A DNA stretch of 64,000 bases, taken from positions 113,392,517 to 113,456,516 of the forward strand of contig NC_134839.1 of the NCBI RefSeq assembly GCF_965363235.1, in the 5' to 3' direction. Source of the DNA: Mytilus galloprovincialis. Taxonomy: Eukaryota; Mollusca; Bivalvia; Mytilida; Mytilidae. Every line of letters starts with the position of its first letter. The stretch's first letter is position 1. The notes beneath the pieces are model-generated. The model did no database searches, was not told the DNA's origin, and saw only the letters and a program-made list of their open reading frames with translations. Below, one piece after another: positions 9,447-59,932 of this stretch. A program made the translations under genes and the position numbers.

Positions 9447-9756
9447 TTATTCCAATAGTCAGCACTTCGGTGTTGACATGAATATCAATTATATGATCAT
9501 TTTAATAAATTTCCTGTTACAAAACTTTTAATTTTTCGAAAAACTGAGGATTTACTTATCCCAGGAATAGATTACCTTAACCGTATTTGGCACAACTTTT
9601 TGGAATTTTGGGTCCTCAATGCTCTTCAACGTTGTACTTCTTTTGCTTTATAACTATTTAGATCTGAGCGTCACTGATGAGTCTTATGTAGACGGAACGC
9701 GCATCTGGCGTACTAAATTATAAACCTGGTACCTTTGATAACTAGCTAGGGACTTT
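9447..9756 (+). mobile_element. Hammerhead retrozyme nested in R1
   Basis: About 310 bases belong to the same family as 22139-22570 and 25068-25380. Shared internal phrases include GTATTTGGCACAACTTTT, CTCTTCAACGTTGTACTTC and the terminal CCTGGTACCTTTGATAACT. It carries one decayed hammerhead motif. There is no ORF, consistent with a non-autonomous retrozyme. Confidence 0.65.
9667..9711 (+). ncRNA. Hammerhead ribozyme motif, decayed
   Basis: AGCGTCA, then the CTGATGA core, stem II GTC/GAC, then GGAA where GAAA is expected, then stem III and TGGCGT. Stem I pairs AGCGTCA with TGGCGT. The G in place of the first conserved A predicts an inactive copy. Confidence 0.65.
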
Positions 9757-13698: not shown

Positions 13699-14021
13699 GT
13701 TAGTCCCCGAGGGTATCACCAGCCCAGTAGCCAGTACTTCGGTACTGGCGTGAAAATACGGATTTGTTTGTGTTATTTAAATTTGCTGTTACAAAATGTT
13801 AGAAATTATTATAAATTAAGGAATGCATCTCCCTCATGCAAAGCTCTGATTCCTCTCACGGATTTGGCTATACTTTTTGGACCTTTCGGATTATAGCTCT
13901 TCACCTTTTATATATAAGCTTTGGATTTCAAATATTTTGGCCACGAGCATCACTGACGAGACATGTATTGTCGAAATGCACATTGGGGGCAGGAAAATTG
14001 GTACCGTTAATGTTATTTGAT
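13699..14021 (+). mobile_element. Hammerhead retrozyme with target-site duplication
   Basis: Copy B has an empty site reading AATGTTTGATTCATCTACATC. In copy A the same place has TTTGAT at 13693-13698, then 323 bases of retrozyme, then TTTGAT again at 14016-14021 and the rest of the flank. The insert carries the shared module CCCCGAGGGTATCACCAGCC at its start and a hammerhead near its end. It therefore moved after the segmental duplication, assuming B never carried it. Confidence 0.75.
13946..13990 (+). ncRNA. Hammerhead ribozyme, CTGACGA variant
   Basis: CTGACGA (allowed by the CUGANGA consensus) at 13953, stem II GACA/TGTC, then GAAA, then a short stem III (ATGC/ACAT-like). Stem I pairing is partly degraded, so activity is uncertain. 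Confidence 0.55.
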
Positions 14022-14320: not shown

Positions 14321-14502
14321 TTAGAGTAGCTAGTGTTTCTCTGATGGATGGTGTGTCTGTTTAGAGTAGCTAGTGTTTCTCTGATGGATGGTGTGTCTGT
14401 TTAGAGTAGCTAGTGTTTCTCTGATGGATGGTGTGTCTGTTTATATCTATGTGAATCTATTTTTTAGAGTAGCTAGTGTTTCTCTGATGGATGGTGTGTC
14501 TG
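14321..14502 (+). repeat. 40-bp minisatellite upstream of GPCR A
   Basis: A 40-bp unit beginning TTAGAGTAGCTAGTGTTTCT occurs three times in perfect tandem (14321, 14361, 14401) and once more after a spacer at 14463. Copy B has a single unit at about 41937. The expansion is therefore specific to copy A and lies about 120-300 bases upstream of the GPCR start codon. Confidence 0.92.
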
Positions 14503-14618
14503 TTTGATACTGTTATGGTAAAATAAATAATTCGAAGAGAAACAATGTTCTGCTTAATCTAAAATAGCCATAATAGGATTAACGTGAAGGATCTGTTTCT
14601 ATCTATTTACAGGTAAAA

Positions 14619-15914
14619 ATGCTAGTTCTGATTTTAGTATTTGTATTGAAAACAGGCATGGTTCGACCACAGGGAACAGATTTGTTATCTGCAACAACAA
14701 ACCTTTTTCCGCCCAATCAAAACAATCACTCACGGATCAATGGTTTAACAAGTATAAAAGCCGAGGACAAAATACATTTAGAATCAACCACTAAACTGAG
14801 TCTGTCAACGGACACACACTGTCTATCTTCAACTATCATTGTAAATCTGACCTCGGAAGATATCGCGATTTCCTTAATAACAAATGATTCAAATAATGGA
14901 CTGATAAAGAAAAATGGCAATAGAAAAAAAGGAAACGATATGGATGGCGTAATTGATTATGTAAAATATGTACAGAACGTGTATGTCTTACCGCCACTCT
15001 GCATGGCTGGAATAGCGGGAAACACGGTCGTTGGAACAGTTTTATTCAAACAAAGAAGCCTGAATTCGTCTTTCATTTACATGTTTGCTATGGTTGTCGC
15101 TGACATATTAAGTTTGATATCAGATCTGTTCATTTCTGCAGGAACTATAATCGAAAAGTATACCACATCAGAACGTTTGCGGAAACATTCACTTGAAATG
15201 AGTCATTGGAGCGGAGCGTTAGTGTCGTTTACATTTCGCTGCACGGCTATAAATATTGTGTGCATTCTTTCAATAGAAAGATTCATTGCAATATCTTATC
15301 CATTTCATCTCAAATCCGCCTTAACCGTCAGATTCCCTCTTACTTTTGTTTTTCTTGCGTTTCTCGTTGGTATTTTTGCTAATATAGCAAAACCGATAAA
15401 TATTAAATTCATGGATATCCAGAAAGGCAATACAAGTGTTTATGGAGCGGTTAGAACGGACTTTTATGTAGCCAATAAGAAGATCATGAATACAGTGGTA
15501 TTTTCCCAACGACTCTTCACCGGACCTGTCCAGATTATTATGTTTTGTGTGATGAACGCGCTCATAATACGCGTCATGTTTCGAAGTAGAAAAAACATGG
15601 GCGTAATAAAGGCTGTAAATTCAACAATGATAAGTGATCGAAAGCATTTACAGGTCAAGCTTTGCAAACTATTCCTAGTTCTCTGTGCTTGGAACATACT
15701 AGCATTTTTACCAAATTCTATTTTATTGATTATTGCAAGGTTTTTCCCAAAGCTTGGACTAAGTAATTTAAGATCGTACACAGCGTGGCTTATTGGGGAC
15801 AGTGGTGATATTCTCCGCGTTATAAACAGTGCGAGTGATTTCATTTTTATTATTCTTATGTCCTCAAATATTCGAAAATCCTTCTATAGTATGTTTAAGT
15901 GCAAAACTAAGTAA
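14619..15914 (+). CDS. Rhodopsin-like GPCR, copy A (431 aa)
   Basis: This is an orphan seven-transmembrane receptor, loosely like FMRFamide or peptide receptors. It has a hydrophobic N-terminus compatible with a signal peptide (residues 1 to about 18), then a Ser/Thr/Asn-rich extracellular tail to about residue 115 with sequons at N36, N76 and N89. TM1 carries GN (134), TM2 VAD (D162), and the end of TM3 ERF (220-222) in place of DRY. TM6 has CAWNILAFLPN, and TM7 has NSASDF in place of NPxxY. There is no Cys at the usual TM3 start and none in the second extracellular loop, so the canonical disulfide appears to be missing. A 3' splice site (CTATTTACAG) sits 7 bases before the ATG, so the CDS is one exon after a 5' UTR exon. 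The ligand is unknown. Confidence 0.88.
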   Translation: MLVLILVFVLKTGMVRPQGTDLLSATTNLFPPNQNNHSRINGLTSIKAEDKIHLESTTKLSLSTDTHCLSSTIIVNLTSEDIAISLITNDSNNGLIKKNGNRKKGNDMDGVIDYVKYVQNVYVLPPLCMAGIAGNTVVGTVLFKQRSLNSSFIYMFAMVVADILSLISDLFISAGTIIEKYTTSERLRKHSLEMSHWSGALVSFTFRCTAINIVCILSIERFIAISYPFHLKSALTVRFPLTFVFLAFLVGIFANIAKPINIKFMDIQKGNTSVYGAVRTDFYVANKKIMNTVVFSQRLFTGPVQIIMFCVMNALIIRVMFRSRKNMGVIKAVNSTMISDRKHLQVKLCKLFLVLCAWNILAFLPNSILLIIARFFPKLGLSNLRSYTAWLIGDSGDILRVINSASDFIFIILMSSNIRKSFYSMFKCKTK

Positions 15915-17420: not shown

Positions 17421-19320
17421 AACTTTTGGTATCCATCAGTCAATCAAAACTAGGAAACTGTGTGAAATTAATTAGGGAACAACAAGCTTACTTAAGATCA
17501 ATGTTTATTCAAAATAATAAATATATACGTCTTGGTATTAGAAAATCTCGAGACACGATACCGTGTACACAATTGACAAGAACTCGTAGCCATATACAGT
17601 TTAGGAAAAAATGTTTTGTCTGAACCAGAATTTACAATCGCCAGACATCCCATTTGTATGATCGTCGACAATCATGTATGTCCTAGTTATTTGCTTAAAG
17701 TCATTATGCGTGTAACATCGTATCTACATTCCACAAAATTCAAACAAACTTCCATGACAAATTAAAGGGCTTCGTGCTTTCTGGCATTCTCTCACACATA
17801 TATACATTTTAACATTCAACAAGATTTATCGTAAAAAAATTAATATTAGAACTACAATTGTGTGTATATAATAAATATATAAAGCAAAATGTCCTGACAT
17901 GAAAATAGATCATTTTTACTCATTTTTATAAGACAATTTGAGTTCATAGGATTGTAAGTTCAAGAGGCTAATACCATCAACGTCTTGCATTACTAATATA
18001 GCATATTTCATTACATTAAGCATTCAAAAGTAACTTCAGCTTTCCTGTTTTTGTCTTCCTCAGATGCTGTCACCTGTAGTTCTGTGTACCCAAAATGCAT
18101 TTGTACTTTGATATGCCTTCTCTTTCCACGATCGACGTTCGGAATTGGGACAGTAAGCATGCCTAGACGACGAACGCCTTTGTCAATAGTGTATTCTGGG
18201 TTTACCTTTTCAGATTCATACACTTCGACCGTTGCCTCGGTGTCAGTTGACCTAGTCGGACTGCACAGGATTGTATACGTAGTTTTACCTACTGTGAGAG
18301 GATCACCTTTCTTTGCAATTGTTTTGAATATGTCGCTGCATATTTCTCGTCCTTCAATTAAACATTTTAGCCTTTCTGGATGTTTCTTGTCGTCGTATGG
18401 TACGTTTACAGTTATTCCATATGTACGTGGACAAATGCGCTCACTGATTAGTTCCGGATTATGTCCGAACATAACAGCTCCTTTAAGTACAGCCAAAACT
18501 GCATCTTGTGGGCAAATAATTTCAAGATAATGAAATTCCTTTTTGACTCGTTCAAATAAAAATGGCGAGTCAGAAAACCCCCCTACCATCAATATAGAGG
18601 TTATATGTCGTCCCTGTCTCTTTTTTAGTGTTGGTGTTAAGAGACTTTGAACATGTGAAATGATAGAATCCACTGATTTCAAAAAGAACCTGTTCACAAC
18701 TCCTGGCTCATATCGGAGCTTTTCGTTCGTAGCAGTCACAGTTTTGCAATGAACTGATTTCTTTAGGTCTTCTTGAAAGGATTGAGATTTGCGGATTTTA
18801 CAGTATGTTTGATATAAAGATTGTGGATATGGAATAGTTGTCTTTGGTTTTTGTGATTCTTTTATACCCCTCTTCTTTGCTTCAAACTTTCTTTTGATAT
18901 CTAAGAAATCTTCCGGTCATTGTTTAATATATTTTTCCCATACATCCTTGTCAAATAAATCTTTCAAAAAACTTTCATATTCTTGATCTACAAAAGTTCC
19001 ACCCCAAGGACCTCCACTTGGTTCACTTAATTCCTTAAGTTCAGAATCATTTTGTACTTCATATGACGTAACGTCGATTGTTCCACCTAAAATAATTAGA
19101 ATAATTATATATGATTGGAAACAAGATCGAATGTGGCTTTTGGAAAAATTGTTTGTTTCAAACAAGAAGGAACCTTTATCGCTTACTTGTGGTCTGAGTA
19201 GTCTGTTTCACTAGCCTGTCAACACATATGTTGTGAGTACGAATCCCGTATACGAAGGCAGGTGCAAATATAAACTGACCGCCTCGCAATAGCATGATAG
19301 TGGTGAAATTTGCGTTTATC

Positions 19321-21660
19321 CACGGCCGACACTCGGCTAACCGAGAGATTGGTCGGTTAATCTATATTGAGTATGCGGCTATATGAGCGATTGGTCTGTT
19401 AATCGGGTTGGTTATACTTCTGTTCAAAGTAAAACGCTTAATTTAATGTTAAACTCTATTAAATATACAGATTTTTGGCATATTATAAGAACCAAATAAA
19501 AAAAAGAAAAGTGTCTGACAAAATGATATCTATCATAGAACATTTTGCACTTGTAAAATCATTTCTTAGTCTGCGCAGTTTTCAGTAAAACTAAAAGGCG
19601 TCGCGAAAGTATGTCGTATTTATGCTTATACGCATAGCCATTTTTTTAATAAAAGGCGAAACAAATAAATTTAGATATCATTTAAAGGACAAAAAAAAGT
19701 ACGGTGGTTCTAAAAAATAAATTGACATTAGTAAATATTTCATAATTGTAAAATAACGTGAATAATACCACGTTTTAGTGAAAATTAATGGGAATAAAGT
19801 CTGTTAATGGGTTGGGCAATTGAAATTGTGTCAATTAAGAGTTATTTAGCCAATAATTTTGCTACCTTTATATTTTCCCCTTAAAAAATTAAGAATGAGA
19901 TGTTTCTGAGGAAAACAAAAATGACAATACGGTACCACAGTATCCTAGAAGGAGCATTTTTATTTTGACTTTCTTTGCATTTGATCGAAGGGTGTGTCAC
20001 TTCAATATAGCGTGATATGGATTGGCCTCTGGAATATGCATGAATTTTTTATTGACGTTTTCAATCAGCCTTAATTTTTGTGTCTTTTCGAAGTAGCACG
20101 TTCTCAATTCCGACTGAAAGTGTCTTTCTACTACAACACAGGGTACATACAACGTGTTCTCGTTCACATATGAACATGATATTTGTCACTGGACGTTAAA
20201 CCTTAATTCGTCGGCATCATCCAATTGGTTCTTTTCTTCTATTACAAATCACGTTAAAGAAGTAAACGGAATGGAGCGAATGCAGCTACACTTGGTTATT
20301 TTAAGTTTCAATTCATTTTATTCCGTTTAGTTCCTTTCTACATAAGTGCAGAGGAGAATTACAGTTGTCTATAGTGGCCGGTGAAGTCCATTTCGCGTTT
20401 TCGCGATTTCGCCTTTCATATTCTATAGGGCGAAAACGCTATATCGCGAAAATGCGAAATCGCGAAATCGAAAACGAGAAATCGGTTTCGCGTTTTCGAC
20501 TTCGCAATTTAGCGTTTTTGCCATATAGAATATGTAAGGCGAAAATGCTAAAGCGCTAAAACGCAAAATGGCATTAACCTGCCACCATAGTTGTCCGCAT
20601 GTAAACTTCTAGAATTTGTCACCAATATAAGTACATCGCAATCCGTTACTGTTTCAACAGCCATCGGTGTTTCATGTGTGTATTCCTAAACAAGTATTAT
20701 TTTTCTCTCGTTTTTAGCAATGTATCACTCTCTACTATTATTCTATATTCTGCGTTTCCATCCAGATTCTCGTGTATACCATGAGGGTCCGGATTGGGGG
20801 TATTGTTTATTTCTGTATTCTTTAAATTGTTATGTCATTTTTTTCTACATTTTATTTATCTTACTCATTATTCTTTCTTTATTTTTCATATTGTGTCATC
20901 CCAATATACTTTACTTAGTGATGTTTAGTTACATTACGACGTTTATCTCTGATTTATATACTGGTTATCAATGTAGATGACAATGTGTTGTTTCCGTATA
21001 TGTTGTGTTTTCATTGCTCATGTGTTGCTTTCGAATATTTTAGCCGCTCGTCTTGAGCCTACTCATTTGATCCGATAACACCCCATATAGCAATAAAATT
21101 ATACTTTTATTGCCTTTCATAACTCTTAACAGACCAATTAACAGACCGGGTTTTTTACATCCGACCGATTAACAGACCAGGTTTTAAGTAAAGATTGATT
21201 TATGTCACCAAAATACAGATTTTCGTGTAGATTTTTCACACAATAATATCAATATGGTTAACAAACATAATGCCTTTCTTTTTTCGATGTTCAAAATATT
21301 GAATGCAAGTAAATTCAACCAATGTGTCATTTTGTGTACATTTTATGTGTGTAAAATGTGTATACATTTATTGATGATTAACCCGCCTTTTCATTTAATA
21401 GATCGTACATCGAAGCTAGAAAAATAATAATTACACCACTGAATTCAGTACATTGAATTGTTTTGTAAGACATGAATATTTTTTATGATGAAAATATATT
21501 TAGAAAGTTATACAATTAATCATGAACTTTCAATGATTTTCTCGATAACACCTGATTAACAGACTTTAGCCAACCCGATTAACAGACCAACGGCCGATAT
21601 AGCCGCATACTCAATATAGATTAACCGACCAATCTCTCGGTAAGCCGAGTGTCGGTCGTG
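19321..21660. mobile_element. DNA transposon with 91-bp terminal inverted repeats
   Basis: The left end (19321-19411, beginning CACGGCCGACACTCGGCT) and right end (21570-21660, reverse complement beginning CACGACCGACACTCGGCT) match over about 91 bases with around six mismatches. Subterminal GATTAACAGACC motifs recur at about 21165, 21553 and 21577, with reverse copies near 19400. The 2340-bp interior has no transposase-like ORF, so it is non-autonomous. Flanks read TTATC and TAATC, a possible imperfect 5-bp duplication. It lies in intron 3 of HSPA12 copy A; copy B lacks it. Confidence 0.85.
20370..20588. mobile_element. Hairpin MITE nested in the larger transposon
   Basis: A 219-bp block has arms of about 75 bases that are inverted repeats (left TAGTGGCCGGTGAAGTCC, right reverse complement TGGTGGCAGGTTAATGCC, both followed by a TTTCGCGTTTT-type run and CATATTCTATA). 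The interior is rich in GCGAAA/TTTCGC palindromes and unusually CpG-rich for this window. AGTTGTC flanks both ends (20363-20369, 20589-20595), a plausible 7- or 8-bp target duplication of hAT type. No ORF. Confidence 0.75.
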
Positions 21661-21965: not shown

Positions 21966-22169
21966 TGTCCATACCATTATATTTGTGCATGAGAAGAAAA
22001 TCTTATTGTTATGGTTATTAAAACAAACATGACATTCAAAAGAAAAACAAATAGTACGTACCTTAACCCTTTTTACAGATCACGAGTCTACGGTGTATAT
22101 ATGAGCGGCTCACCTTTAATGTTGCAGGCTACTGTTAAGTTATCAAAAGTACCAGGATTATAACTTAAT

Positions 22170-22214
22170 ACGCCAGACGCGCGTTTCGTCTACATAAGAC
22201 TCATCAGTGACGCT
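22170..22214 (-). ncRNA. Hammerhead ribozyme, canonical core
   Basis: Minus strand: AGCGTCA, CTGATGA, stem II GTC-loop-GAC, GAAA, then ACGCGCGTC with cleavage expected after GTC, then TGGCGT. Stem I pairs AGCGTCA with TGGCGT including one G-U pair. Stem III is the self-complementary ACGC/GCGT with almost no loop, the minimal form known to work best as a dimer. Confidence 0.8.
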
Positions 22215-22524
22215 CAGATCAAAATAGTTTAAAAGCCAAACAAATACAAAGTTGAAGAGCATTCAGGACCCAAAATTCCAAAAAGTTGTGCCAAATACGG
22301 CTAAGGTAATCTACTCCTGGGGTAAGACAATCCTTAGTTTTTCGAAAAATTCAAAGTTTTGTAAACAGAAAATTTATAACAATGACCATATAATTGATAT
22401 TCATGTCAACACCGAAGTGTTAACTACTGGGCTGAAGATACCCTCGGGGACGAAACGTCCACCAGCAGTGGCATCGACCCAGTGGTGTAAATAGTTATCA
22501 AAGGTACCAGGATTATAATTTTAT

Positions 22525-22568
22525 ACGCCAGACGCGCGTTTCGTCTACATAAGACTCATCAGTGACAT
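22525..22568 (-). ncRNA. Hammerhead ribozyme, second copy
   Basis: Same core as the neighbour 355 bases away (CTGATGA, GTC/GAC stem II, GAAA, ACGCGCGTC, TGGCGT). Its stem I 5' strand is ATGTCA, which can still pair with TGGCGT through G-U pairs. Confidence 0.78.
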
Positions 22569-23159
22569 ATGCTTTCTCACCTCGAATGACAGAGCCGTAT
22601 AAACAATTTTACTTACACAACAATATAATTTCGTTCAGATACTTCTTCTTTACAGCTACTCAAAAAAATGTTAAACATGTAAAACCTACCTCCACAGTCT
22701 AGAACCAAGAACTGATGACCTGCGTCAAAAGATTGAAGACTACATTCCTCTGTTCCTTCTTTCCTCTGCACAGTTGCCTCTTTACAATAAATAGCAGCCG
22801 CTTCCGGTTCATATGCAAGAGTTAAAAAGTCTTCATCTATACCAGCCTTCAAAAATGTATAAAACTTACACTTAAAGTTTCACTTTTAGACTATAAACAT
22901 TTCATTTAGGCACTCTCTGAATGTGAATGCCGTTCGTGCTGATCTGATGAGTCTAGCCACTTCAAAAATAATTTTTACAGCTTGATCTTATGTCGCTATT
23001 ACAATTTATCCCCAGGTGAAAGTGTTTCGTGCTCACAAAGAAGTTTAACCCTTCAACAATACATAATGCCTGACCCAAGTCAAGAGCCCGTAATCCAGTG
23101 GTTGTCCTTGGTTGCTGTCTTCTATATTTGGTTAAATCTGGTGAATGGCTTTTTAAACA

Positions 23160-25067: not shown

Positions 25068-25380
25068 CGAGTTTTTATTCCACGAGGTTATAACCAGCCC
25101 ATTAGTCACATTTTGTGTCGACTTGCATTATCGTTTATATAGTCATAATCGTAAATGAACTGTTTACAAAATTAATTTGGAAATACTAAGCCTTTTTTAC
25201 CTCATGAATAGATTAATTTAGCTGTATTTGGCAACACTTTTCGGAATTTGCGGTCTTCAATGCTCTTCAATTTCGTACTTTATTTGGCCTTTTTAACTTT
25301 TTTTTATTCGAGCGTCACTGATGAGTCTTTTGTAGACGAAACGCGTGTCTGGTGCTAATACAAAATTTCAATCCTGGTAC
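25068..25380 (+). mobile_element. Hammerhead retrozyme beside HSPA12 A exon 1 donor
   Basis: About 310 bases on the plus strand belong to the same family as 9447-9756 (GTATTTGGCAACACTTTT, TGCTCTTCAATTTCGTAC, hammerhead, CAATCCTGGTAC). Its right edge is only about 3-5 bases from the 5' splice site of HSPA12 A intron 1 (GT at 25384-25383 on the minus strand). Confidence 0.68.
25311..25356 (+). ncRNA. Hammerhead ribozyme, canonical core
   Basis: AGCGTCA, CTGATGA, stem II GTC/GAC with a TTTTGTA loop, GAAA, ACGCGTGTC, then TGGTGCT. Stem I pairs seven positions (AGCGTCA with TGGTGCT, two G-U pairs). All core residues are present, so this is the best candidate in the window for an active monomer. 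Confidence 0.8.
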
Positions 25381-25711: not shown

Positions 25712-26079
25712 TCACATAGTTGGTTGACCGTTATGGAATAACTGTATCACAAATGATATCGGATATGTTACTTACGTCGTAACTACAATCCCCTTCCCTT
25801 TCCTGAATGTGACCTACCGAATTAGACTTTTTACCGGATTTGTTATCACATAAGCAACACGACGGGTGCCCCATGTGGAGCAGGATCTGCTTACCATTCC
25901 AAAGCACCTGAGATCACCCCTAGTTTTTTGGTGGGGTTCGTGTTGTTTATTCTTTAGTTTTCTATGTTGTGTCGTGTGTGCTGTTGTTTGTTTGTCTTTT
26001 TCATTTTTAGCCATGGCGTTGTCAGTTTGTTTTAGATTTATGAGTTTGACTGTCCCTTTGGTATCTTTCGTCCCTCCTT
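25712..26079 (+). repeat. Upstream pseudo-LTR of the Naiad element
   Basis: It matches the element's own 3' end: GTTGGTTGACCGTTATGGAA at the left, CCTACCGAATTAGACTTTTT in the middle, GGTATCTTTCGTCCCTC at the right. It includes the last RT codons plus the 3' non-coding tail, so it is a truncated tandem copy rather than a true LTR. Confidence 0.85.
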
Positions 26080-26084
26080 TATAA

Positions 26085-26152
26085 CCACTGGGCCGATGTC
26101 TCTGCTGGTGGACATTTTGTCCCCGAGGACATCATCCGCCCAGTAGCAAAAC
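26085..26152 (+). repeat. Module shared with hammerhead retrozymes
   Basis: The start of the Naiad body (ACCACTGGGCCGATG, CTGCTGGTGGACATTTTGTC, CCCGAGGACATC, GCCCAGTAG) aligns over about 65 bases with the reverse complement of retrozyme sequence at about 22427-22490, with roughly ten mismatches by eye. Both ends carry complementary CTGGG/CCCAG segments, so the module itself can fold. Confidence 0.75.
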
Positions 26153-26161
26153 TACAATTGC

Positions 26162-27714
26162 ATGAATTTACGACGATCTAACAGGAAACTGGCTCGGACG
26201 TCGCCCAGTATAAAAAGGTCCGAAACAGACGTCACCATGGACACGGTGTCGTCTGATACGGCAGGTGTCCCCTCATCACCAGACATGACAAATAACACAA
26301 ACATGACTCATTCAGATCATCGTCCTAGTGACAACAGCAATATTACACATATACTGCCATGTTCAGTTCTCCTCAAAGACATTTTGGTTTTTGATGACAC
26401 AGTACAACACGGTCGCATTTCGAAATGTGAGACCAAAGGCTGCAAAACTTGTGCAATTTACTTACAGATGCTGAATTCACTAGCAATTTCACCAAGAAGT
26501 CATATTTTACCAGAAGTTACGATGATCTGCATTGTAAATCGATAAATGTTGTCTACGGATTAGAGTGCGGATTGGTATACGTCGGTGAAACGAAAGGAAG
26601 GCTTAACAAACGTATGTGCGGTCATAGATCAGACATTAACCTCAATGCTAACGATATTCTATACTAGCATTTCAATCAGCCCGATCATTCCATCGTTTCT
26701 ATGACAGTTCGCATTATCGAAAAGATATACCATAGCTCTAACAATTCTAATCTTTCAACAACTCTCCGTAAACAAAAAGAGGACTACTGGATTAGACAAT
26801 TGGGAACTGCGACACCTTATGGTTGCAATGACAAAATTGATGGTATAGGTATTCTATCTAGTCCTTCGTGTAACTCGGTGAATGTGATGAATATTTTCAA
26901 TTCGACTCCTCGACGTAGACGCAGTCAAGGTCATCGTCATTATACATCACCTTCTCTGCATGATGTATATATTAATGACTTGCTGCCATTTATACAAAAG
27001 CCGTTAGGTATTCATCACATTCGCACGAAACTTTATTCATTACCTCTTTCAAAACTTCATTCTCTGTTCAATTTATGTTTGGAATCCACTGTTACAAACC
27101 CTCATTCAAACCTATACAAAATTACAGCTATAATTTCGGATATTGCAAGTCACAGACTTTTCAAGCCAGTCCGCATTGGCAAAGATGAAAAAGAGAAAAG
27201 ATCTTTCCTTAATCTTTCCTTTGCCAACAAAGGTATCGATGGCGTCAACTTAGGCAATATCCTTCATCATAAATTAGTCTAATCGAAAATACCTCCTTAT
27301 TTCAAAGACCAGTCTGTACCAATCATTTCTTAAACCTATACCAAACCTATTGCAACTAACATTTTCAATTACAAACACGTTTTGCAGGATCTCGATATTG
27401 ACGACTTCAAGTCTAAACCTCCCGATTGCACTTGTGCTAGTTCCCAATTCACATATAATCCCGCTGGCCACGTTATTACCGGTGACCTAAACATTGTTAA
27501 TAACACTTCTCTACGAAATGTGTTATCGAAAGGTCCGAAATATCGTGAGCCTAAATCCATCAATTGGAAATTCAACTTTAAAATTTTGATGGATTCAGTT
27601 GAGGATTATGCCAGGCAATGGGCTAAGCGCGAGAAGGAAGACGTAGATACTCTTTCCGAATGGATTAAGGCAGTGAGGTCGTTGATACAAATTAAATCAG
27701 AATTAAGAAACTGA
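26162..27714 (+). pseudogene. Naiad 5' coding part: GIY-YIG nuclease and CxC linker
   Basis: A degenerate frame starts MNLRRSNRKLARTSPS. A cysteine cluster (KCETKGCKTC) precedes the nuclease core INVVYGLECGLVYVGETKG with RLNKR and GHRSDI, then WIRQLGTATPYGCND. This is a GIY-YIG domain (GLVYVGET pattern, downstream Arg and His). The linker at 27421-27450 carries PDCTCASSQF, the CxC signature, followed by GHVITGDLNIV and LSKGPKYREP, typical of the Penelope RT N-terminus. The coding region is interrupted by several stops and frame changes, so this copy is dead. Confidence 0.8.
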
Positions 27715-27719
27715 ATGGG

Positions 27720-29144
27720 TCTATCAATGCCCATGCTACGTCAATCTTTAAAGACCCAAATGTTGCAAAACGCCTATCCTACCTCCATGACAAATATGTT
27801 GTTGTCCCCGCAGATAAAGCCCCAAACAACATCGATTTTGTATGTAAAACTCATTACATTAACTGCTTGATAAACTAATTAGGTATTGACAATTCACTTG
27901 GAAACTCAACATATACCCTCACGACACTTACCAAAGAGGAAATCCTGGATAATCATAGGTCTGTTCTGTGTTCCTTCGGAATTTCAACCAAAGATGAAGA
28001 ACTGGATCTGCCATCACTGTATTGGATACCTAAACTACATAAGTGTCCTTACAAACAACGGTAAATTGCTGGGTCTTCCAAGTGCTCCACGAAACCTCTT
28101 TCTAAATTATTAAAATCTATTTTATCAGCAATCAAAGACGGGCTTCAAAGTTATTGTGAAACTGCCTATTCTAGAGGAGGCGTGAATCAGATGTGGATAC
28201 TTAAAAATTCAAAAGATCTTTTAGAGTACATACAATCTAACTCTCTTTCATCTTGTAACAGTATTAAAACATTTGACTTTTCTACTCTGTATACTAGTAT
28301 TCCACATTCCAAACTAAAAAAGAAATTGAAAGAGTTGGTATTGCTTTGCTTCGTAAAAAAGAATGGCCAACGTAGATACAAGTATCTTGTCTTAGGGAGG
28401 GATAAATCCTACTTTGTAAAGGATCACTCTGATTCGAACAAAAAATTCTCTGAAACTGATATTATCAAGATGCTTGATTTCTTGATTGACAACATATTTG
28501 TTACGTTCGGAGGACGTGTTTTTCAACAGACTGTCGGCATTCCAATGGGAACAAATTGTGCCCCTCTACTTGCCGACTTGTTTCTTTATTATTATGAGGC
28601 TGACTTCATGCAGGAACTTCTTAGGAAGAAAGATAAGAAGTTAGCACTATCCTTTAACTCTACTTTTCGCTACATAGATGATGTTCTTTCACTAAATAAT
28701 TCAAAATTTGGTGACTATGTGGAACGCATCTATCCAATCGAGCTAGAGATAAAGGATACTACAGATACAGTTACGTCGGCTTAATATCTTGACTTACATC
28801 TAGAAATTGACAATGAGGGTCGGTTGTAAACAAAACTTTACGACAAAAGAGATGATTTCAGCTTTCCAATTGTGAACTTTCCATTTCTAAGTAGCAACAT
28901 TCCAGCAGCACCTGCATACGAGGTATATATCTCCCAATTGATACGATATTCCCGTGCTTGCATTTCCTATCATGATTTTCTTAATAGAGGGTTGCTGCTC
29001 ACAAGGAAGCTATTAAACCAAGAGTTCCAAATGGTGAAGTTGAAATCATCCCTTCGTAAATTTTACGGACGCCATCACGAGTTGGTTGACCGTTATGGAA
29101 TAACTGTATCACAAATGATATCGGATATGTTCCTTACGTCGTAA
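27720..29144 (+). pseudogene. Naiad reverse transcriptase region
   Basis: RT fingers and palm: SIKTFDFSTLYTSIPHSKL, VGIPMGTNCAPLLADLFLYY, catalytic FRYIDDVLSLN (YxDD box), then LYDKRDDFSFPIVNFPF and YISQLIRYSRACISYHDF. The longest intact stretch is 28182-28784. Sequence 5' of it is shifted between frames. There is no nuclease after the RT, which confirms the permuted order. Confidence 0.85.
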
Positions 29145-29442
29145 CTACAATCCCCTTCCCTTTCCTGAATGTGACCTACCGAATTAGACTTTTTACCGGA
29201 TTTGTTATCACATAAGCAACACGACGGGTGCCGCATGTGGAGCAGGATCTGCTTACCCTTCCGGAGCACCTAAGATCACCCCTAGTTTTTTGGTGGGGTT
29301 CGTGTTGTTTATTCTTTAGTTTTCTATGTTTTGTCGTGTGTGCTGTTGTTTGTTTGTCTTTTTCATTTTTAGCCATGGCGTTGTCAGTTTGTTTTAGATT
29401 TATGAGTTTGACTGTCCCTTTGGTATCTTTCGTCCCTCTTCT
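29073..29442 (+). repeat. Downstream pseudo-LTR / 3' tail of the Naiad element
   Basis: Direct repeat partner of 25712-26079 with a handful of differences. It ends TCGTCCCTCTTCT immediately before the AATGC target duplication. Diverged tails of the same kind lie at 740-1010, 4361, 34300, 37540 and 40735. Confidence 0.85.
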
Positions 29443-29469: not shown

Positions 29470-32400
29470 TTAAAAACAAATACTATTTTCTACAATACAT
29501 AATTCTAAAAAACTTCACTTATAAATATTTTAATAAAATATATTTAGTTGCAAAACATCGCGTGCTTGAATTATTTCAAATACTACTAGTATATTCCTAG
29601 AAGGGAGTGCTAAAGAGCCATTAACTATGATTTAGCTACCAAAATTCTAAGAATGATAATTTTTGTTTCAAGTATTAATAAAAGCGGAATTTTGAAACTG
29701 TCTTGTTATAAACATTCAAGATTGGCCATAGTTTGTCAAAAAAACGCGTTAAAATATCACTTATGTATATGATTGATTTGCAAGTCAATATTTTACCTCA
29801 CTGGGTCCGTATCTATGTGATCCTCAATTTATTCCTTAAGCTAGAGATTGTTTATTGATGTACTATAGACGCATTCGGTTATTAAAAGGAAAAAAAACCA
29901 ATTACGGTAAATCATTTGATTGATTTAATTAAAACAAATTCTTTTATAGATAAAACCGATGATTAATACATTTTAAAACCTTTTATTATCGTATGAAAAT
30001 AAACCGATCTAGAAAAGTCAAACTACACATGCTGAATTGTATGTTTATGTTATGTTTCTATCGGGTAACATTACCATTGACATTATTCGAGGGTCATTTC
30101 GGTGGTTAATAAGATGGGCTCTAGACTAAAATATATACAAACTGCTGATATATATTATCGAGTGAGTGTATATTTAATTGTTTATTCTAGACTTTTTGCA
30201 ATTTTGATACACGTTTTAGTATGTTATAAATTAAATATAAGAATTTGGGTGAACTCGGGGAATGTGAATTTGACAGTAAATACCCTTTAAACATCACTAT
30301 GTACATTGTAAATATATTATCAAACAAAGTTTATAATCTCAAACCAAAAATCAAGAATAAGTTTTTTATTTATAAATCAGTATGCAGTGCTTCGGAAATA
30401 ACAAACTGTTCGTGAAATCTCCGTTGATTAATTCAGAAATTATTAAGAAGCAAAAATTCCAACTTCTTCTTAGTTTTTTCTATTATGTAGGCTATCAATG
30501 CTAGTAGATACAGAATTTGTTGACGCACTATTTTATTCTGCATTTGTTCAAACCGCTTAATTCAAACTGGCAAGGAGTATATGATAACCTGACGGACAAG
30601 AAATGTCTTTTGAACATCGGTATACTACTGTTGCCTTTATGGTTTTAAACTTAAGTGTGCAGTTCTTTAAATTTCTGCGTAGAAGCCTAATTATTTCTTT
30701 GCTCCAATAAATGGCATATCGTAAATGTCATGTTAAATGGTAACACCTCATTGGCTGATTCAGATATTGTTATGTAGAGTAATTGTTACCTATGATGGAC
30801 GGTATTATTCGAATGATTTAGTAAAATGAAAAATAAATATATCAACTTCTTTTCAATTTGCCAAAGATTTAGCAAAAACATGAATACTCATAATAAGTAT
30901 AATAATATCTAACGTCGAAAATCGTGCTGCCTGTCATATGATACAATTCTTATTTTTTGCCGCTGGACTTTAACCACACTGTGGTATTATTATAGGAATA
31001 AACATGTGGGTTCGTTAATCAATTTAATGATTTATTGGCACAAAAATATCTCACTTCAAGAAATTTAAAAGGTGAAGTGCATAAAAACTGATAAAATCAA
31101 ATGCTATTGATTAATGGAACAATTAAAAACAAACTGTAATATTGATAGTCATTGATGATTTTGGATATGCTTTTTTTTAAAGAAAAAGGTGGATTGAATC
31201 TGGTTTTAAAGCTACCTATACCTCCCTTATGTATGATAGGGCAGTTGTTTGTAGGTTTGTTATATCGAAAAAAATTGGTGAGCAACTCAAACAGACATCA
31301 CCGGTTAATGTGACAATTTATTGACAACAAATATCTAATGGAACCTAATCTAATGGATTCAGAAAGTACTACATGTAGTTGATTATACTGAACTGATGAT
31401 ACCATTGGTGACTGATAGGCCACCATCAGTGGTAACAACCCAGTACTATATAAAAAGATCAGTTTATTGTTTTCATGAAAAACTTTTGACTTCTTGTCTG
31501 TCATTGTCTTTTAGGTTGTAAACTCCGAGGTATATAAGATAATTGGCTTAGTAATCCCCACAAACTTGGTATGCATTAACTTTCAAATTATGTGGTCTCT
31601 AGTACATTATCTATTAAACTATCAGTACGCAGTGAAATGGTATGGAATGTTAATTTAATTCATGACAACCTTATATTTTATAAATTTAGATGTTAAAATA
31701 AGTATATGTCAACGCTTTGACAGAATGTTATATAATAGTTTATTGATTTCGAAAGTAGAAAAAAAATATCATGAAGAAATACATACTAGAATTATTTTTT
31801 TAATCATAAACTTTAGATATCACCATTATCATCTCCTTTAGAATAAAAACAAAATGCCTCAAGTTGAGTAAAATCATAATCTTATCGAAATACCTGAACA
31901 ATCTGAATTACTTCCTTCCTGTGCTCATCTTTTACTAGTAAGAATTGTCCCCCTTTGAGAGAAAATTAATCAGCAATAAATCCTTTTAAAAAATGAATGT
32001 CGGACTCAATGTTGAAATCTGACGCATAAAACAAAGACATAGATAAAAAAAAATATGTATAACATTTTTTTTAGGGAAACGGAGATGAACATAGATCAGT
32101 GTGGAATTGTTCAATAAAAAAGAGTAAGCAGGTATTTTTCGACTTTCATACTGTAATTTGCAATTATGTAAATAGCAATATTACTGTTGTTGTTGATGTT
32201 GTTTGTGCGGTTTGTTTTGTTTATTTTTAACATAGTTATAGATGTCTCTTCTGATAGATCAGGCTTGTAATTTCGTATGTACGCCAGACGCACATTAGGT
32301 CCAGAACACATGACTCATCAGCGGTGCTAAAATCTTAAACCGTGTTTTGGGTATTTCGACGTTTCGCACAATAATCGGTCTAATAGTATTTTTCATTTGA

Positions 32401-37944: not shown

Positions 37945-39660
37945 TCCCCCGTCAATTATTAATTGGAATGAGTGTCGTAATACCATCCACGACTCACTCC
38001 ATACTTACTGTATGAAATGGATAAAACGGGAAAAAGCTGACAAAAAATCTTTGGACTCTTTTTTTAATTCAGTAATGAAGATAGTTGATATACGTATTCA
38101 ACATTTTAAAGAACATTTTACTATTAACAATAACCACAAAAAAACCTATTTCTCGTATCAAACATAAACTAAAAGAACTAGCCAAGAAATTTGTTTTTGT
38201 CCCGGCCGATAAAGCTGCTAATAATATTATTATTGTTTGACGTAAATTTTACATTGAGGTTCTGAAAAAAGAAATCACCAATTCACCAACATTCCAACTG
38301 ACTCCATTTTCAGAAAACGACATCTGTAACAAACATAAACTTTTAGCCACTGCTTTACAAGCAGAGCCAAATACAATGAAAGTCCCAACTACGTACTGGC
38401 TTCGGAAGCTACACAAAACACCTTACAAATATAGATTTATTTCGTCTTCAAGCCATTGTTCCACTTATAAATTGTCTATTCTTCTTACCAGCACACTTGG
38501 TACAATTAAAAACCTGATGATGAATTGTTCAAATAAGGCCTTCGAAAATAGTGGAATTAATTACTTTTGGAGTGTCAAGAACTCGTTGGAAGTACTTGAT
38601 AAACTGCATGCTTATATTGGTGATTTTGAATCTGTTCAAAGTTTTGATTTTTCTACCATATTGCCTCACATTCTCATTAAGAAAAAAATTCACACACCTA
38701 ATTAAATGGGCATTTAAAAAGTCAGAATGTGAATATATATGTTCAAACTCTTTTAGGTCATTTTTTAGTAGCAATAAACAAAAAAAACTATGTCAATTGG
38801 ACATGCTTTGATACTATATATATCCTTGAATTTTTACTAGATAACATTTTTGTTCGCTTTGGGGATTCCGTATATCGTCAGATTATCGGAATTCCAATGG
38901 GGACTAACTGTGCACCACTTATTGCGGACCTGTTTTTGTATTGCTATGAGTTACAATTTATGACAAAAATAAGCAAAGACCCATCGAAACAACATCTGAT
39001 AAAAAAAATTAATAATACTTTTAGATATTTTGATGATATTTTGGCTCTCAATAATGACGACTTCAGTATGTATATTAAAGAAATTTATCCTGTTGAACTT
39101 ACTTTAAATAAAGCTAATAATAACAATGACCACTGCCCTTTCCTCGATCTTGATATCTATATCATTAACAGAAAGCTGAATACTAAAATTTATGATAAAA
39201 GAGATGATTTTTCATTTCCTATCGTTAATTATCCATTTTTAGATGGTGACGTTCCCTTGTCACCATCTTACGGTGTTTATATATCTCAACTTGTACGATT
39301 CGCTCGTGTATGTAACAATGTTTTAGATTTTAACGAGAGAAATTCATGAATTACTGAAAAAAATATTACACCAGGGTTTTCGATATCACAAACTAGTCAA
39401 AACATTTACTAAATTTTATCATCGGTATAAAGACATCATTCGTAAATATAGCTCAACATGCAGACTTCTTATACGTTCAGGTATTTCACATCCAATTTTT
39501 TATGGAAATATTCTTTATAAAGCACAAAGGTGTCAGTATTCACCTCAAAACCTAACAAAACCTTTGAATAGACTTATTAAGAAGGGATATAGTTACGATA
39601 CTGTTGTCAGGTCATTAAAGATTGCATATTTTGGCGTTAATATTTTTTCCATGTACTGAT
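37945..39660 (+). mobile_element. Penelope-like element, RT part, copy B only
   Basis: This encodes an RT of a different subfamily from the Naiad at 25.7 kb: TYWLRKLHKTPYKYRFISS, IGIPMGTNCAPLIADLFLY, catalytic FRYFDDILALNN, PFLDLDIYI, YDKRDDFSFPIVNYPF and, after the RT, SGISHPIFYGNILYKAQR. It starts around the linker (NYWNECRNTIHDSL), so the 5' part is missing and no GIY-YIG is visible. A few breaks interrupt it. It occupies the place of the copy A segment 4.66-11.94 kb and therefore of lectin exons 1 to 3. No pseudo-LTR or target duplication was found. Confidence 0.8.
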
Positions 39661-40905: not shown

Positions 40906-42091
40906 TTGAAAGGTCATAAATCGATTGAGAGGAAAAAAATCCGGGTTATAAAGCCAAGGGTGACGCATTAACTACAAGAGTCAATCAATTGAACAATAGA
41001 AACACTGAAGTGTATCAAAATCAAACGCCAACTCGGCAACATACAAACGGACTATTTGATAACAACTGCCATATTCCTGTCTTGGAACAGGACATTGTAA
41101 GATAAATGGTGGGTTGAATCAGGAACATAGATATTGACGAATCAAACATCACAATTATATTAGAAATATTATATTACAAATATATCTACCTTAAGATAAA
41201 ACTTGTATATGTTAATTTGTTTGTAATAATGTGGTTAATTTATTGAGCAATATTAATGGTTTGCTGTCAGACGTTCCCAAAATCATAAAATCTCGCGAAG
41301 TCTCATGAAATTCTGGAATTTAACAATTTTGTGTTGTAAAGCCTTTCAGATTCATTGCTTGTTAAATATCATCAAATTATCAGTAAGATATTCAATTTAC
41401 AAAGTATATTACTAAAAATGTATTATTAATCACCAGAAAGGAGATAATTTGTTGACATTGTAGAGATACTTCATGAAAGAAGTAACGGTAGTTAATGTCA
41501 AACAAGACTTATTAAACAAGTTAAAACAAAAATTTTCATTTCTCTAATGTTTATTAAAAAGCAACAAACAATATTCTGTTTTGGTTGATCAAATGAATGT
41601 TTGATTCATCTACATCAACCATACTGTTTGATTCATTTTGTTGTCAATATCAGAAGAAATTACACTATTTTGACAATCAAAGAAACTACTGAAGTCGAAT
41701 TAATGATGCAATAAGTCATATATGCATAACTTTCAATTAACGATGCACATTACTGCTAACGATGCACATTACTGTTATAATGAGCAAAAATACTTTCAAA
41801 CAAAATTTATAACTGTAGTCATTTTCATGTTTGTTAAAATATTGCCGTTTTGTCAGCTTTTAATTACGGAAACTTTATGTTTATTTCTCCGGAGAAAAGA
41901 TATTCGTACAAATTGTATCAATGTCAATCTAATTTTTAGAGTAGCTAGTGTTTCTCTGATGGATGTTGTGTCTGTTTGTCTACTTTTATGGTAACATAAA
42001 TAATTCAAAGAGAAACAATGTTCTGCTTAATCTAGAATAACCATAACAGGATTAACGTGCAAGATCTGTTTCTATCTATTTACAGGTAAAA

Positions 42092-43378
42092 ATGATAGTT
42101 CTTATTTTAGTATGTGTATTGAAAACAGGCATGGTTCGACCACAGGGAACCGATTTGTTATCTGAAACAACAAACCTGTTTCCGTCCAATCAAAACAATC
42201 ACCCACGGATCAATGGTTTAACAAGTATAAAGGCCGGGGACAAAATACATTCAGAATCAACCACTAAACTGAGTCCATCAACGGACACAAACTCTCTATC
42301 TTCAACTATCATTGTAAATCTAACCTCGGGAGATGTCGCGATTTCCTTAATAGCCAATGATTCAAATAATGGAGTAATAGAGAAAAATCGCAATGGCAAA
42401 AAAGGAAACGATATGGATGGCGTAATTGATTATGTAAAATATGTACAGAACGTGTATGTCTTACCGCCACTCTGCATGGCTGGAATAGCGGGAAACACGG
42501 TCGTTGGAACAGTTTTATTCAAACAAAGAAGCCTGAATTCGTCTTTCATTTACATGTTTGCTATGGTTGTCGCTGACATATTAAGTTTGATATCAGATCT
42601 GTTCATTTCTGCAGGAACTATAATCGAACAGTATACCACATCAGAATGTTTGCGGAAACATTCAATTGAAATGAGTCATTGGAGCGGAGCGTTAGTGTCG
42701 ATTACATTTCGCTGCACGGCTATAAATATTGTGTGCATTCTTTCCGTTGAAAGATTCATTGCAATATCTTATCCATTTCATCTCAAATCCGCCTTAACCG
42801 TCAGATTCCCTCTTACTTTTGTTTCCCTTGCGTTTCTCATTGGTATATTTGCTAATATAGCAAAACCGATTAATATTAAATTCATGGATATCCAGAAAGG
42901 CAATACAAGTGTTTATGGAGCGGTTAGAACGGACTTTTATGTAGCCAATAAGGAGATAATGAATACAGTAGTATTTTCCCAACGACTGTTCACCGGACCT
43001 GTACAGATCATTATGTTTTGTGTGATGAACGTGCTAATAATACGCGGCATGTTTCGAAGTAGAAAAAACATCAAGGCTGTAAATTCGACATTGATAAGTG
43101 ATCGAAAGCATTTACAGGCCAAGCTTTGCAAACTATTCCTAGTTCTCTGTGCTTGGAACATACTAGCATTTATACCCAATTCTATTTTATTGATGATTGC
43201 AAGGTTTTTCCCAAAGCTTGGACTAAGTAATTTAAGATCGTACACAGCATGGCTTATTGGGGACAGTGGTGATATTCTACGCGTTATAAACAGTGCGAGT
43301 GATTTTATTGTTATTATTCTTATGTCCTCAAATATTCGAAAATCCTTTTGTAGTATGTTTAAGCGCAAAACTATTTAA
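42092..43378 (+). CDS. Rhodopsin-like GPCR, copy B (428 aa)
   Basis: Full-length paralogue of the copy A receptor with the same layout: signal-like N-terminus, Ser/Thr-rich extracellular tail, TM1 GN, VAD, ERF, CAWNILAFIPN, SASDF. By eye it differs at about 17 positions in the first 115 residues but only about 18 in the remaining 313. It also lacks three residues (MGV) in the third intracellular loop. A new Cys appears before TM3 (SECL versus SERL), which does not restore the canonical disulfide because no partner is visible in loop 2. The same 3' splice site (CTATTTACAG) precedes the ATG. Intact reading frames in both copies suggest that both are under selection. Ligand unknown. Confidence 0.88.
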   Translation: MIVLILVCVLKTGMVRPQGTDLLSETTNLFPSNQNNHPRINGLTSIKAGDKIHSESTTKLSPSTDTNSLSSTIIVNLTSGDVAISLIANDSNNGVIEKNRNGKKGNDMDGVIDYVKYVQNVYVLPPLCMAGIAGNTVVGTVLFKQRSLNSSFIYMFAMVVADILSLISDLFISAGTIIEQYTTSECLRKHSIEMSHWSGALVSITFRCTAINIVCILSVERFIAISYPFHLKSALTVRFPLTFVSLAFLIGIFANIAKPINIKFMDIQKGNTSVYGAVRTDFYVANKEIMNTVVFSQRLFTGPVQIIMFCVMNVLIIRGMFRSRKNIKAVNSTLISDRKHLQAKLCKLFLVLCAWNILAFIPNSILLMIARFFPKLGLSNLRSYTAWLIGDSGDILRVINSASDFIVIILMSSNIRKSFCSMFKRKTI

Positions 43379-57730: not shown

Positions 57731-59932
57731 TAATATTTCGTCACAGATCAAATCAGTTGATGTCACCTGTGTTTTACCTGTGTGCGCGTCATCGATAATT
57801 CTACGTCACAGATCTACCTACGTATATTGACTGACCAGTAACATTTATTTAGCTTCCGGTGTCAACATTCAGCACGTTCAGAAATTGGATTCATGTGGAT
57901 ATCAACTTGGATTGTGAATTCATTAATGGGTCAGTACTGTGCATTGTATGTTTATATATGTTGTATTGTTTGTCATATGTATTGTATAAACCGATCATAA
58001 TTATTTGTTCATTTGGAAATTGCCATTAGAAACTTTAATTGAGTTTGAAAAAAACTTTGTCAAAATTTTCATTCATGTTTTAGTTTACATTGAAAAAAAC
58101 CACTTGTCTAATGATATTTTATATTGAATAGATAGACAATCGTTATTTGGTATTGAGCATACAGTGTACATGTAAATTAAGTGTGATATAGACATTATTC
58201 ATACATAGTTTTGTAATTAGACTTGAACATTTTGTGTTTGTTGAGACCCCATACACTTGTATCCCTACCCCCGGGAAAGGTCATAGAGGTCAACCGGAAG
58301 TACTAGATATTGACATTTTTGTTTACATTAGCAACTACATATCAGTAGTTAGCAGTTAGATACACTGATTTAAAATTTACTTTTGATTTTTGTGCATACA
58401 CACATACACTTAGTTGTACATTGAAAATATTTTACAAATTTATTTGTTTTATTTGGACTTAGTAAAATTACCAGTGAGATATCAACATACACTGATTGAT
58501 TGATAGTTACACATAAACACACATAGTCCATTCCACCTTGACTTAGCATTTCACATTGTACTTTACATTGTTTATATTTGTACATTGTCATGTTTATTGT
58601 TTATGTGTATTGCATTTGACATTGTTCATTGTTGTTTACATTGTCATATATGTATGTGTATTGTGTACATGTGTATTGTGAAATTGATTTGTTTGTGTAC
58701 AATTGTCATTGATTTGTTTGTGTACAATTGTCGTTGATATTTGTTACATTTAACATTAATTTGATGAAATAGTTAAAACTTTTCTAGAAACTAAATTTTG
58801 AATTAAAAGTTTAAACTTTAAAAGTTTAATTGAGATCAGTGAGCTTGTGTAGTACAATTAACACTTGATTATTTAACCTTCATACTTACCATCCTTACTT
58901 ATCCACCATATTACACCATACCTAGGAAAGGCACTTATACTATATTTAACTTTCTATTACTATTTCTTGGACTTAGTCTTTAGTGGAGAGAGTTATTTAG
59001 GTTGGTTTAGGTTAGCTTGGTATAGTTTGTTGTTAGTTTAGTTGTACTTTGACTTGAGTAGATTGGAACAGTGATACAGTATAGTTATCTTGTGATTATA
59101 TTGTCCTAGTTGTACCGTATATATAGTTGTCTGTATATTCATTTGTATATATTTAACTTGCATATTTATTTACATATTTTTTTTCTCTCTTTGATTTGAT
59201 ATCATACTTGTCTGACATGGGTTTGTAGACGTACAAGCTTTACAACTCATATACAAGTTCAGGTTTTGCATATAGTTGGTAAGTCATTGTGGTTATATAT
59301 ATATTTCTTATATTGATTTGTGTTATTCTCTTTAGTATTGTTTATATATAGTGATTATCTTGAATTGCTTTTCATTTATTAATATATTGATTTTCTTTGT
59401 AGTTATTAATATCTTTATTTTCTTTTTGATTTTCAGATATACTGTTTTGGTTTAGAGTCTATACTGTGTGATTTTGATTGACTTATACTTTATTTAGTTT
59501 CAGACACATATATTTATTTACATGTATTTATTGTCTATTGCTATTTACATTTGACTTTGGATTAATTTATACATTTTCTTTTCAGATAATTTGAATTTGA
59601 TTTTATTACATTCTTTACTTAAGCACTTATTAGTGTATTTACTTAAGCACTTACCAGTGAAACTTATTTAGTCACTTCTTAGTGAAATTTATTTAGTCAC
59701 TTCTTAGTGAAAATTATCTTAGTTTATTTTTCATTATTTACATTTTGGTTATTGTTCACTTTACTTATCATTTCTTTTTCAGAATATTTAGTTTATTATT
59801 ATCAACTTGAGTGAAAACTTTATTTCATTTTTATCTCATTATTCATATTGAGTTGAATTTTGTTTTCTTTATTCACTTTTTAGTGAATCTTTATTTACAA
59901 ATCACTTATAAGTGAAACAAATATATATCAAC
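57731..59932 (+). other. Long T-rich leader of the Ty3/Gypsy element
   Basis: About 2.2 kb between primer-binding site and gag, non-coding and rich in T and TTTA/ATTG runs. It has a short tandem at 58687-58737 (GATTTGTTTGTGTACAATTG twice). Near gag it has six copies of a small inverted motif described separately. Confidence 0.7.
59624..59914 (+). repeat. Six copies of CACTTNNNAGTG in the leader
   Basis: The 12-base inverted motif occurs at 59624, 59648, 59673, 59698, 59874 and 59903, with variable centres (ATT, ACC, CTT, CTT, TTT, ATA). The last copy ends 19 bases before the gag ATG. The conserved arms with changing centres suggest small RNA hairpins or a protein site. Confidence 0.8.

Follow-up and report, generated by a model that had tools for sequence, protein, structure and literature searches.

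The head of a Naiad unit and the short hammerhead-bearing retrozymes of Mytilus galloprovincialis share a structured module of 62 nt, which in both adjoins the fixed 3' terminus of the insertions. Judging from sequence, we somewhat favor the reading that this module is the landing pad of the Naiad RT, and that the retrozymes are SINE-like parasites copied in trans by Naiad. As to which enzyme returns animal retrozymes to DNA, PLEs were proposed as the motor on general grounds in 2020 (PMC7229834; likewise PMC7761336), the available excerpts of both papers treating the question as open and offering no sequence link between PLE and retrozyme. As one Naiad and three retrozyme families have the module in the same position, this question can be assayed with two cloned parts. 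If the favored reading is true, a PLE would gain a SINE-like partner defined by sequence, short ribozyme circles could have originated from an autonomous element, and the RNA recognized by the Naiad protein would be pointed out.

The shared module and its fold

The window, i.e., the whole stretch of 64,000 nt that was analyzed, carries the module at 26085-26146 on the plus strand, at the head of a Naiad unit that starts at about 26077, the module beginning 8 nt inside it. It was delimited by BLASTN, folding and alignment of copies, and its stems are P1 (ACTGGGY/GCCCAGT), P2 (GATGTC/GACATC) and an inner hairpin, GGACATTTTGTCC. A BLASTN comparison of 26085-26152 with the window gave a match of 62 nt to 22485-22424 with 85.5% identity (9 mismatches, E 9e-16), and one of 32 nt to 13700-13731 with 84% identity (E 7e-5). 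The longer match is the module of retrozyme family A (22424-22485, minus strand), and it and the Naiad copy are both in the RNA sense, the Naiad ORF lying on the plus and the retrozyme hammerhead on the minus strand. An earlier note on this DNA had claimed a retrozyme match with roughly ten mismatches at about 22427-22490, which is real although its coordinates were off by a few bases; the match that it had claimed at the 13699 element was also recovered. That element (13700-14017, plus strand) belongs to a third retrozyme family, C, which has a hammerhead core distinct from the others, and comprises a module remnant (13700-13730), the core pattern (13953-13976) and the 3' end TTGGTACCGTTAATGTTATT at 14017. 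Downstream of it, at 14323-14505, a 40-bp unit occurs four times, three in tandem and one past a short gap. A divergent module copy, D (31386-31444, minus strand), matches the retrozyme A module at 74%, with stems that are partly compensated.

The segment 26085-26152 folds at -29.2 kcal/mol, with a z of -3.8 and 0 of 200 shuffles equally stable, and the retrozyme A copy folds with a z of -3.2, equaled by 1 of 200 shuffles. The antisense folds were similar (z of -4.4 for the Naiad copy and -2.9 for the retrozyme copy); comparable stability of the opposite strands is expected because the structure is a hairpin. Overall, the earlier claim of a foldable module common to Naiad and retrozymes is confirmed, on firmer evidence than it had when made.

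Conservation of the pairing was analyzed on 25 module copies of five groups, picked from 52 distinct ones, over a hairpin of 23 pairs, with one gap shifted by hand. Standard pairs were present in 548 of the 575 cells, while partner-slid controls gave only 218-267 pairing of 548-575 cells, a comparison in which the structure is favored over its slid versions, as it was taken from folds of the same sequences; 1000 column shuffles gave a mean of 523 pairing cells and a maximum of 534. Double changes occur at three pairs across the 25 copies. Between a typical Naiad copy (L009) and a retrozyme A copy (L040) there are 8 module differences, 5 of them in stems, and all five are still paired; the changes are 15-46 TA/CG, 30-35 AT/GC and 14-47 GC/GT, two of the pairs being double changes. 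From such alignments, the module appears to have evolved under RNA pairing.

Identity of the module with a known RNA was rejected, since none of the Rfam matches rose above chance. No covariance model reached its gathering level over the module, and none matched it at E up to 5; in 251 nt containing the module, searched at E up to 10, PVT1_6 (12.8 bits, gathering 45; sense, partial overlap) and Ysr276 (10.5 bits, gathering 100; other strand) were at chance level. For relatives outside the genome, exact-pattern scans of viral contigs and genome contigs returned 0 matches. A long imperfect hairpin elsewhere in the window (20397-20554) matched a plant miRNA family with 45 bits (gathering 139), and is probably an inverted-repeat element.

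Unit organization and insertion ends

The Naiad unit of the window (26077-29442, plus strand) has a broken frame, and consists of the module, a GIY-YIG region, a linker, the RT and a 3' tail. It is preceded by a pseudo-LTR (25718-26076, plus strand), which is the 5'-truncated end of the preceding tandem unit and is 98% identical to 29081-29438; the tail signature TGGTATCTTTCGTCCCTC and a spacer (26059-26084, plus strand) lead into the module. In copy L016, a frame of 1000 aa is open, with the GIY-YIG N-terminal to the RT in one ORF. This domain order is clear although both Pfam scores are sub-threshold, i.e., PF01541 in the N-terminal stretch (E 0.0015, 19.3 bits, cut-off 22.6) and RVT_1 at 645-854 (22.5 bits, cut-off 29.6). 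Two motifs were recognized in L016 by eye: DCTCASS as the CxC linker between EN and RT, and ECNLC...H...H as the CCHH in the EN. By its domain order and motifs, taken together with the sub-threshold Pfam scores, the element is identified as a Naiad PLE. A PDB sequence search with the Naiad ORF gave 3 matches, none of them meaningful (best E 0.71). The earlier note had also held that Naiads lack a canonical hammerhead, and this was borne out in the units examined, as the core pattern CTGANGA...GAAA was absent from the sense strand of the L016 unit and of the window Naiad, and no Rfam hammerhead matched in Naiad loci L013, L016, L019, L024, L014 and L062. Other open frames of the window, all judged by eye, include two similar HSP70-like ones (18011-18916 and 51436-52575, both minus strand) and one with a CCHC-knuckle-like stretch, which is gag-like (59912-61045).

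The first 20 Naiad loci (L009-L028) were the top of the near-exact matches to the 68 nt, and hence biased. Most of them hold 1.02-2 units, head to tail with a partial upstream unit, mostly in the order tail, module, 5' region, ORF and tail; the Naiads of L018 and L027 have internal deletions. At L026 (5029-7703), a Naiad begins directly at the module and is broken by a Naiad of opposite orientation. Genomic copies were then listed by RT score, which carries no module bias, with the RT fragment of the Naiad ORF (28065-28784, plus strand) as query; among the best 150 of 34,334 candidates, 25 had stop-to-stop frames of at least 900 aa. The module stood at the expected place in 21 of these 25 near-intact Naiads, by exact pattern in 18 (either the junction of tail and module or a 35-nt part of the latter) and in near-exact form in 3 (L078, L079, L082). 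The other four start downstream of the module, with no Naiad sequence found upstream of their starts; one, at C8:61217210 in L016, starts 219 nt past it. The other three, L081, L080 and L083, have their starts 7, 17 and 29 nt beyond the module, respectively, which is what an RT stopping at the hairpin might leave.

The retrozyme A array of the window (22138-22575, minus strand) contains about 1.2 units and has its 3' end at 22138. In the RNA sense, its type I hammerhead (22525-22568, minus strand; Rfam RF00163, 34.1 bits, gathering 34) and its tail TAATCCTGGTACCTTTGATAACTATTTACA (22486-22515, minus strand), at or near the ...ACTATT of which other insertions stop, are followed by the module. 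In 24 loci fetched from 40 listed matches (890 candidates), the retrozyme unit is about 354 bp and the arrays range from 1.2 to more than 4 units. The RF00163 score is 33-34.1 bits in family A and 28.6 in family B (L069, below the gathering score of 34); the family C copy of the window has the hammerhead core pattern only, and some sampled retrozyme copies are without the core. Degenerate hammerhead-like stretches at 25312-25355 and 9665-9703 of the window (28.5 and 22 bits, below gathering) are retrozyme remnants.

Exact patterns were counted over 1.385 Gb of genome. The module head CCACTGGGTCGATG occurs at 12,004 places (reversed control, 1), the Naiad-type module of 35 nt at 98, the Naiad tail-module junction at 95 and the retrozyme A junction at 2,561 (controls, 0 each). 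From the first 100 module heads listed, 14 places outside evident tandem runs were sampled, and all 14 were of retrozyme type (by tail, 7 A, 6 B and 1 C). By exact patterns, the module is thus about 100 times commoner in retrozymes than in Naiad, which counts against Naiad as the motor. On C1 of the genome, positions 433605-448305 hold 43 successive module heads with a period of 350 bp, which is satellite-like.

The insertion ends have a common geometry. Among 17 retrozyme A arrays with the 3' end in view, 16 stop at or a few bases from ...GATAACTATT, before TACACC and the module, L041 being the one that ends elsewhere; the 5' ends (19 in view) are scattered all over the unit. Likewise, 24 of the 28 Naiad segment ends in view fall between 4 nt short of the equivalent point and 13 nt past it. 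The exceptions are L018, one fragment at L025 and two parts of the Naiad that is interrupted at L026, while L019 extends beyond its stretch. In both Naiad and retrozyme A, insertions terminate about 4-9 nt before the module stem, with variable 5' ends. Families B and C were thinly sampled, their ends being located by the tail motif. Of seven family B tails without module, four stop about 6-9 nt before the module position and two run 7-10 nt further, while that of L021 runs on into the retrozyme body with the module deleted, and these last three count against Naiad as the motor; four family C tails stop 6 nt before the module position. The B ends at 12573 and 40586 of the window represent one event, in which the stretch was duplicated after insertion, because their flank is identical. 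Similar open frames near these ends (14583-15914 and 42056-43378) are receptor-like by eye.

The predicted hammerhead cut in retrozyme A, placed after CGCGCGTC by the usual cleavage position of the hammerhead family, is 41 nt upstream of the insertion end, and the cDNA was therefore not begun at the RNA end made by the hammerhead. By this geometry, it would have begun inside a circular or multimeric RNA, adjoining the module. Circular retrozyme RNA has been published for M. galloprovincialis (PMC7229834, in excerpt).

Sequences around the module were also compared. The motif TGGTAYC precedes the module by 26 nt in Naiad, 24 nt in A, 27 nt in B and 23 nt in C, with a chance of 0.0045 per shuffled tail for a motif that was selected after looking; similarity of the tails to Naiad outside the module is weak (p of 0.15, 0.02 and 0.10 for A, B and C by dinucleotide shuffle). 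Downstream, CATGAA is found at 14 nt in three Naiad copies and at 18-19 nt in 4 of 6 retrozyme copies (chance 0.006, post hoc), being absent from L069 and from the window C copy, and similarity there is also weak (alignment p of 0.02-0.70). These flanking motifs are best regarded as leads, not proof, and the weak similarity on either side counts against Naiad as the motor. The best match for a target duplication had a mean of 4.0 nt in retrozymes against 3.6 in mismatched controls (n=11) and of 4.0 nt in Naiads against 3.35 (20 segments), only copies with the typical 3' end being admitted to either set, and a few Naiads have flanking repeats of 4-7 nt. No clear target duplication is seen in either family, so that the comparison does not discriminate; it gives no proof of shared integration chemistry, which counts against Naiad as the motor. 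Excerpts of PMC7229834 give retrozyme target duplications, when present, as longer than 4 bp.

Possible roles of the module

Besides full units, the genome holds short arrays derived from Naiad. L014 has only the Naiad head and tail, in tandem units of about 136 bp with five modules; L062 has tandem units of 174 bp, which span the tail, the module and the beginning of the 5' region, with five modules in the stretch; and L023 has a head-only tandem of 112 bp, in which the last of four modules is continued by a full Naiad. The Naiad with the four 112-bp heads (L023, 1547-5249) sits inside a retrozyme, the matches of which overlap by 3 bp at the target. In their makeup the mini-arrays look like a retrozyme before gain of a hammerhead, and their expansion at the DNA level is possible.

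In the proposed mechanism, the landing pad would consist of the module, the TGGTAYC tail 23-27 nt upstream of it and, in many cases, CATGAA 14-19 nt on its downstream side. The RT and endonuclease of Naiad would bind the module and begin the cDNA about 4-9 nt before it, at an internal point of a circular or multimeric RNA, and synthesis would run round the unit. An internal start followed by copying round the unit would produce a fixed 3' end, a variable 5' end and insertions that are often longer than one unit. As the retrozymes carry the same pad beside their hammerhead, their circular RNAs would be copied in trans by Naiad, as a SINE is by a LINE. The suggestion of Naiad as the motor of retrozymes, made in the earlier note, is partly supported by the fixed position of the module (21 of 25 near-intact Naiads, and the retrozyme A arrays), by the fixed 3' terminus adjoining it in both, and by the mini-arrays; what we infer is that the Naiad protein binds the module, that it copies retrozymes in trans, and that retrozymes descended from deletion derivatives of Naiad. 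Considering the fixed position, the shared orientation and the structure-keeping differences, chance insertion of an independent repeat into both is very unlikely.

Two candidate lines of evidence were discarded. Chimeras were rejected as proof of shared machinery: a Naiad tail joined to a retrozyme module was found by exact pattern at 0 places in the genome, which counts against Naiad as the motor, and the reverse at 1. A retrozyme tail with GATGTC occurs at 179 places, which we take as mostly point variants because only 1 of them has the longer Naiad-type GATGTCTCTG. The other concerned a second Naiad-like family (38241-39349 of the window; L053-L055 and L059), which by eye has a CNC linker and a GIY-YIG-like stretch upstream of the RT, and the 3' end of which differs from that of the module-bearing Naiad. 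In its L053/L054 subfamily the open frame is 480 aa, both copies start at the same internal point, and dozens of copies have an identical RT score. In one copy (L077, L059 and L084 joined), the 3.3 kb that precede the RT are free of the module, which counts against Naiad as the motor; five more upstream stretches (L056-L058, L060 and L061) are also without module, but are truncated or unrelated. In L055, a tail and module of retrozyme type precede the RT by 1.95 kb. The flank of L055, however, is closely matched only by sequence less than about 5 kb away, all other matches being 74-80% over about 140 nt (40 of 347 candidates scored), and does not continue into copy L059; L055 was therefore rejected as a second autonomous carrier, and is probably a chance mosaic.

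The same data can be read in other ways. The module may have passed just once between Naiad and a retrozyme ancestor, through a deletion derivative or a template switch into Naiad, with different machinery copying each of them today. The clear homology of the module and its weakness outside, the far greater abundance in retrozymes, and the second Naiad-like family, without module in the one copy covered, would all suit such a history; however, change that preserves the structure, and a terminus-module geometry common to Naiad and retrozyme A, speak for a function that is still shared, and the Naiad mini-arrays suggest that such derivatives still arise, so that shared ancestry only appears unlikely to us. 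As to the direction of transfer, descent of retrozymes from Naiad is possible and so is the reverse, given the roughly 100-fold retrozyme excess of the module and its absence from the one copy of the second Naiad-like family that could be read far upstream. We give a similarly low probability to the idea that another PLE or LINE of this genome moves the retrozymes, Naiad being one more carrier of the pad. The genome searches covered the top-scoring copies, and hammerhead-bearing PLEs occur in mussels (PMC7229834, in excerpt), which leaves room for it; among the copies with examined context, nevertheless, the module heads units only in the module-bearing Naiad family and in retrozymes, and the apparent second carrier, L055, is the probable mosaic described above.

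It is also conceivable, though we hold it very improbable, that the module is an RNA-processing motif, perhaps an unrecognized, protein-assisted cleavage site, which sets the unit boundary, the insertion ends being simply RNA ends. The examined Naiad units lack the hammerhead core pattern and an Rfam hammerhead, segments in L023, L026 and L014 begin at the unit start or the module head, and the junction of the 112-bp array is at the same place, all of which would agree with processing; against it, the module has no Rfam match above chance on its sense strand, its nested hairpin has no recognized catalytic core, and retrozymes already cleave by hammerhead, at a different place. A wider version of the landing-pad reading would make a single system of all these elements, in which Naiads and retrozymes both move as circular or multimeric RNA, with one structured internal start and the Naiad enzyme. 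Naiads would shed head and tail mini-circles (the 136-, 174- and 112-bp arrays), which would become retrozymes by gain of a hammerhead, and the module would fix the ends of the RNA unit in place of the missing hammerhead; we consider this extension speculative and rather improbable.

Relation to known systems

In SINE/LINE pairs, the 3' tails are shared, and the non-autonomous element borrows the RT recognition end of the autonomous one. Under the landing-pad reading, the same borrowing would occur here, with the differences that the shared part directly follows, on the 3' side, a start point internal to circular or multimeric RNA, and that the parasite is a ribozyme-bearing circle. Naiads, as Craig and colleagues reportedly described them in 2021, have an N-terminal GIY-YIG, CCHH-type cysteines and histidines, a CxC linker, a C-terminal RT and a pseudo-LTR, with no hammerhead found; the present element agrees in all of these, and differs in a head module shared with retrozymes, which that description is not known to include.

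The retrozymes found here, in tandem units of about 354 bp with a type I hammerhead and no LTR, probably belong to the published M. galloprovincialis families, which are non-LTR retrozymes of 350-390 bp with a type I hammerhead, in thousands of copies (Cervera and de la Pena 2020, PMC7229834). The excerpts of that paper describe no module, no occurrence in a Naiad and no ends past the cleavage site, all of which were found here. In a study of the anole PLE PAc (Frangieh et al. 2024, PMC11167929), the RT is described in excerpt as starting inside the RNA and requiring RNA 3' of the start, with the hammerhead dispensable in vitro. An internal RT start and a need for 3' sequence would be common to PAc and the Naiad, and the match of genomic ends to RT start sites in PAc is taken as a further likeness. 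By analogy, Naiad would recognize the module immediately 3' of its start, and retrozyme circles bearing the module would be copied in trans. PAc differs in being a canonical PLE with a C-terminal endonuclease and a hammerhead, its recognition region is thought to lie within the first 172 nt of the ORF, and the excerpts describe no non-autonomous partner. Copying in trans has a parallel in Adineta, where a host gene moved between Penelope pLTRs and, according to the author, cis-acting pLTR sequences suffice for integration in trans (PMC3846280, in excerpt).
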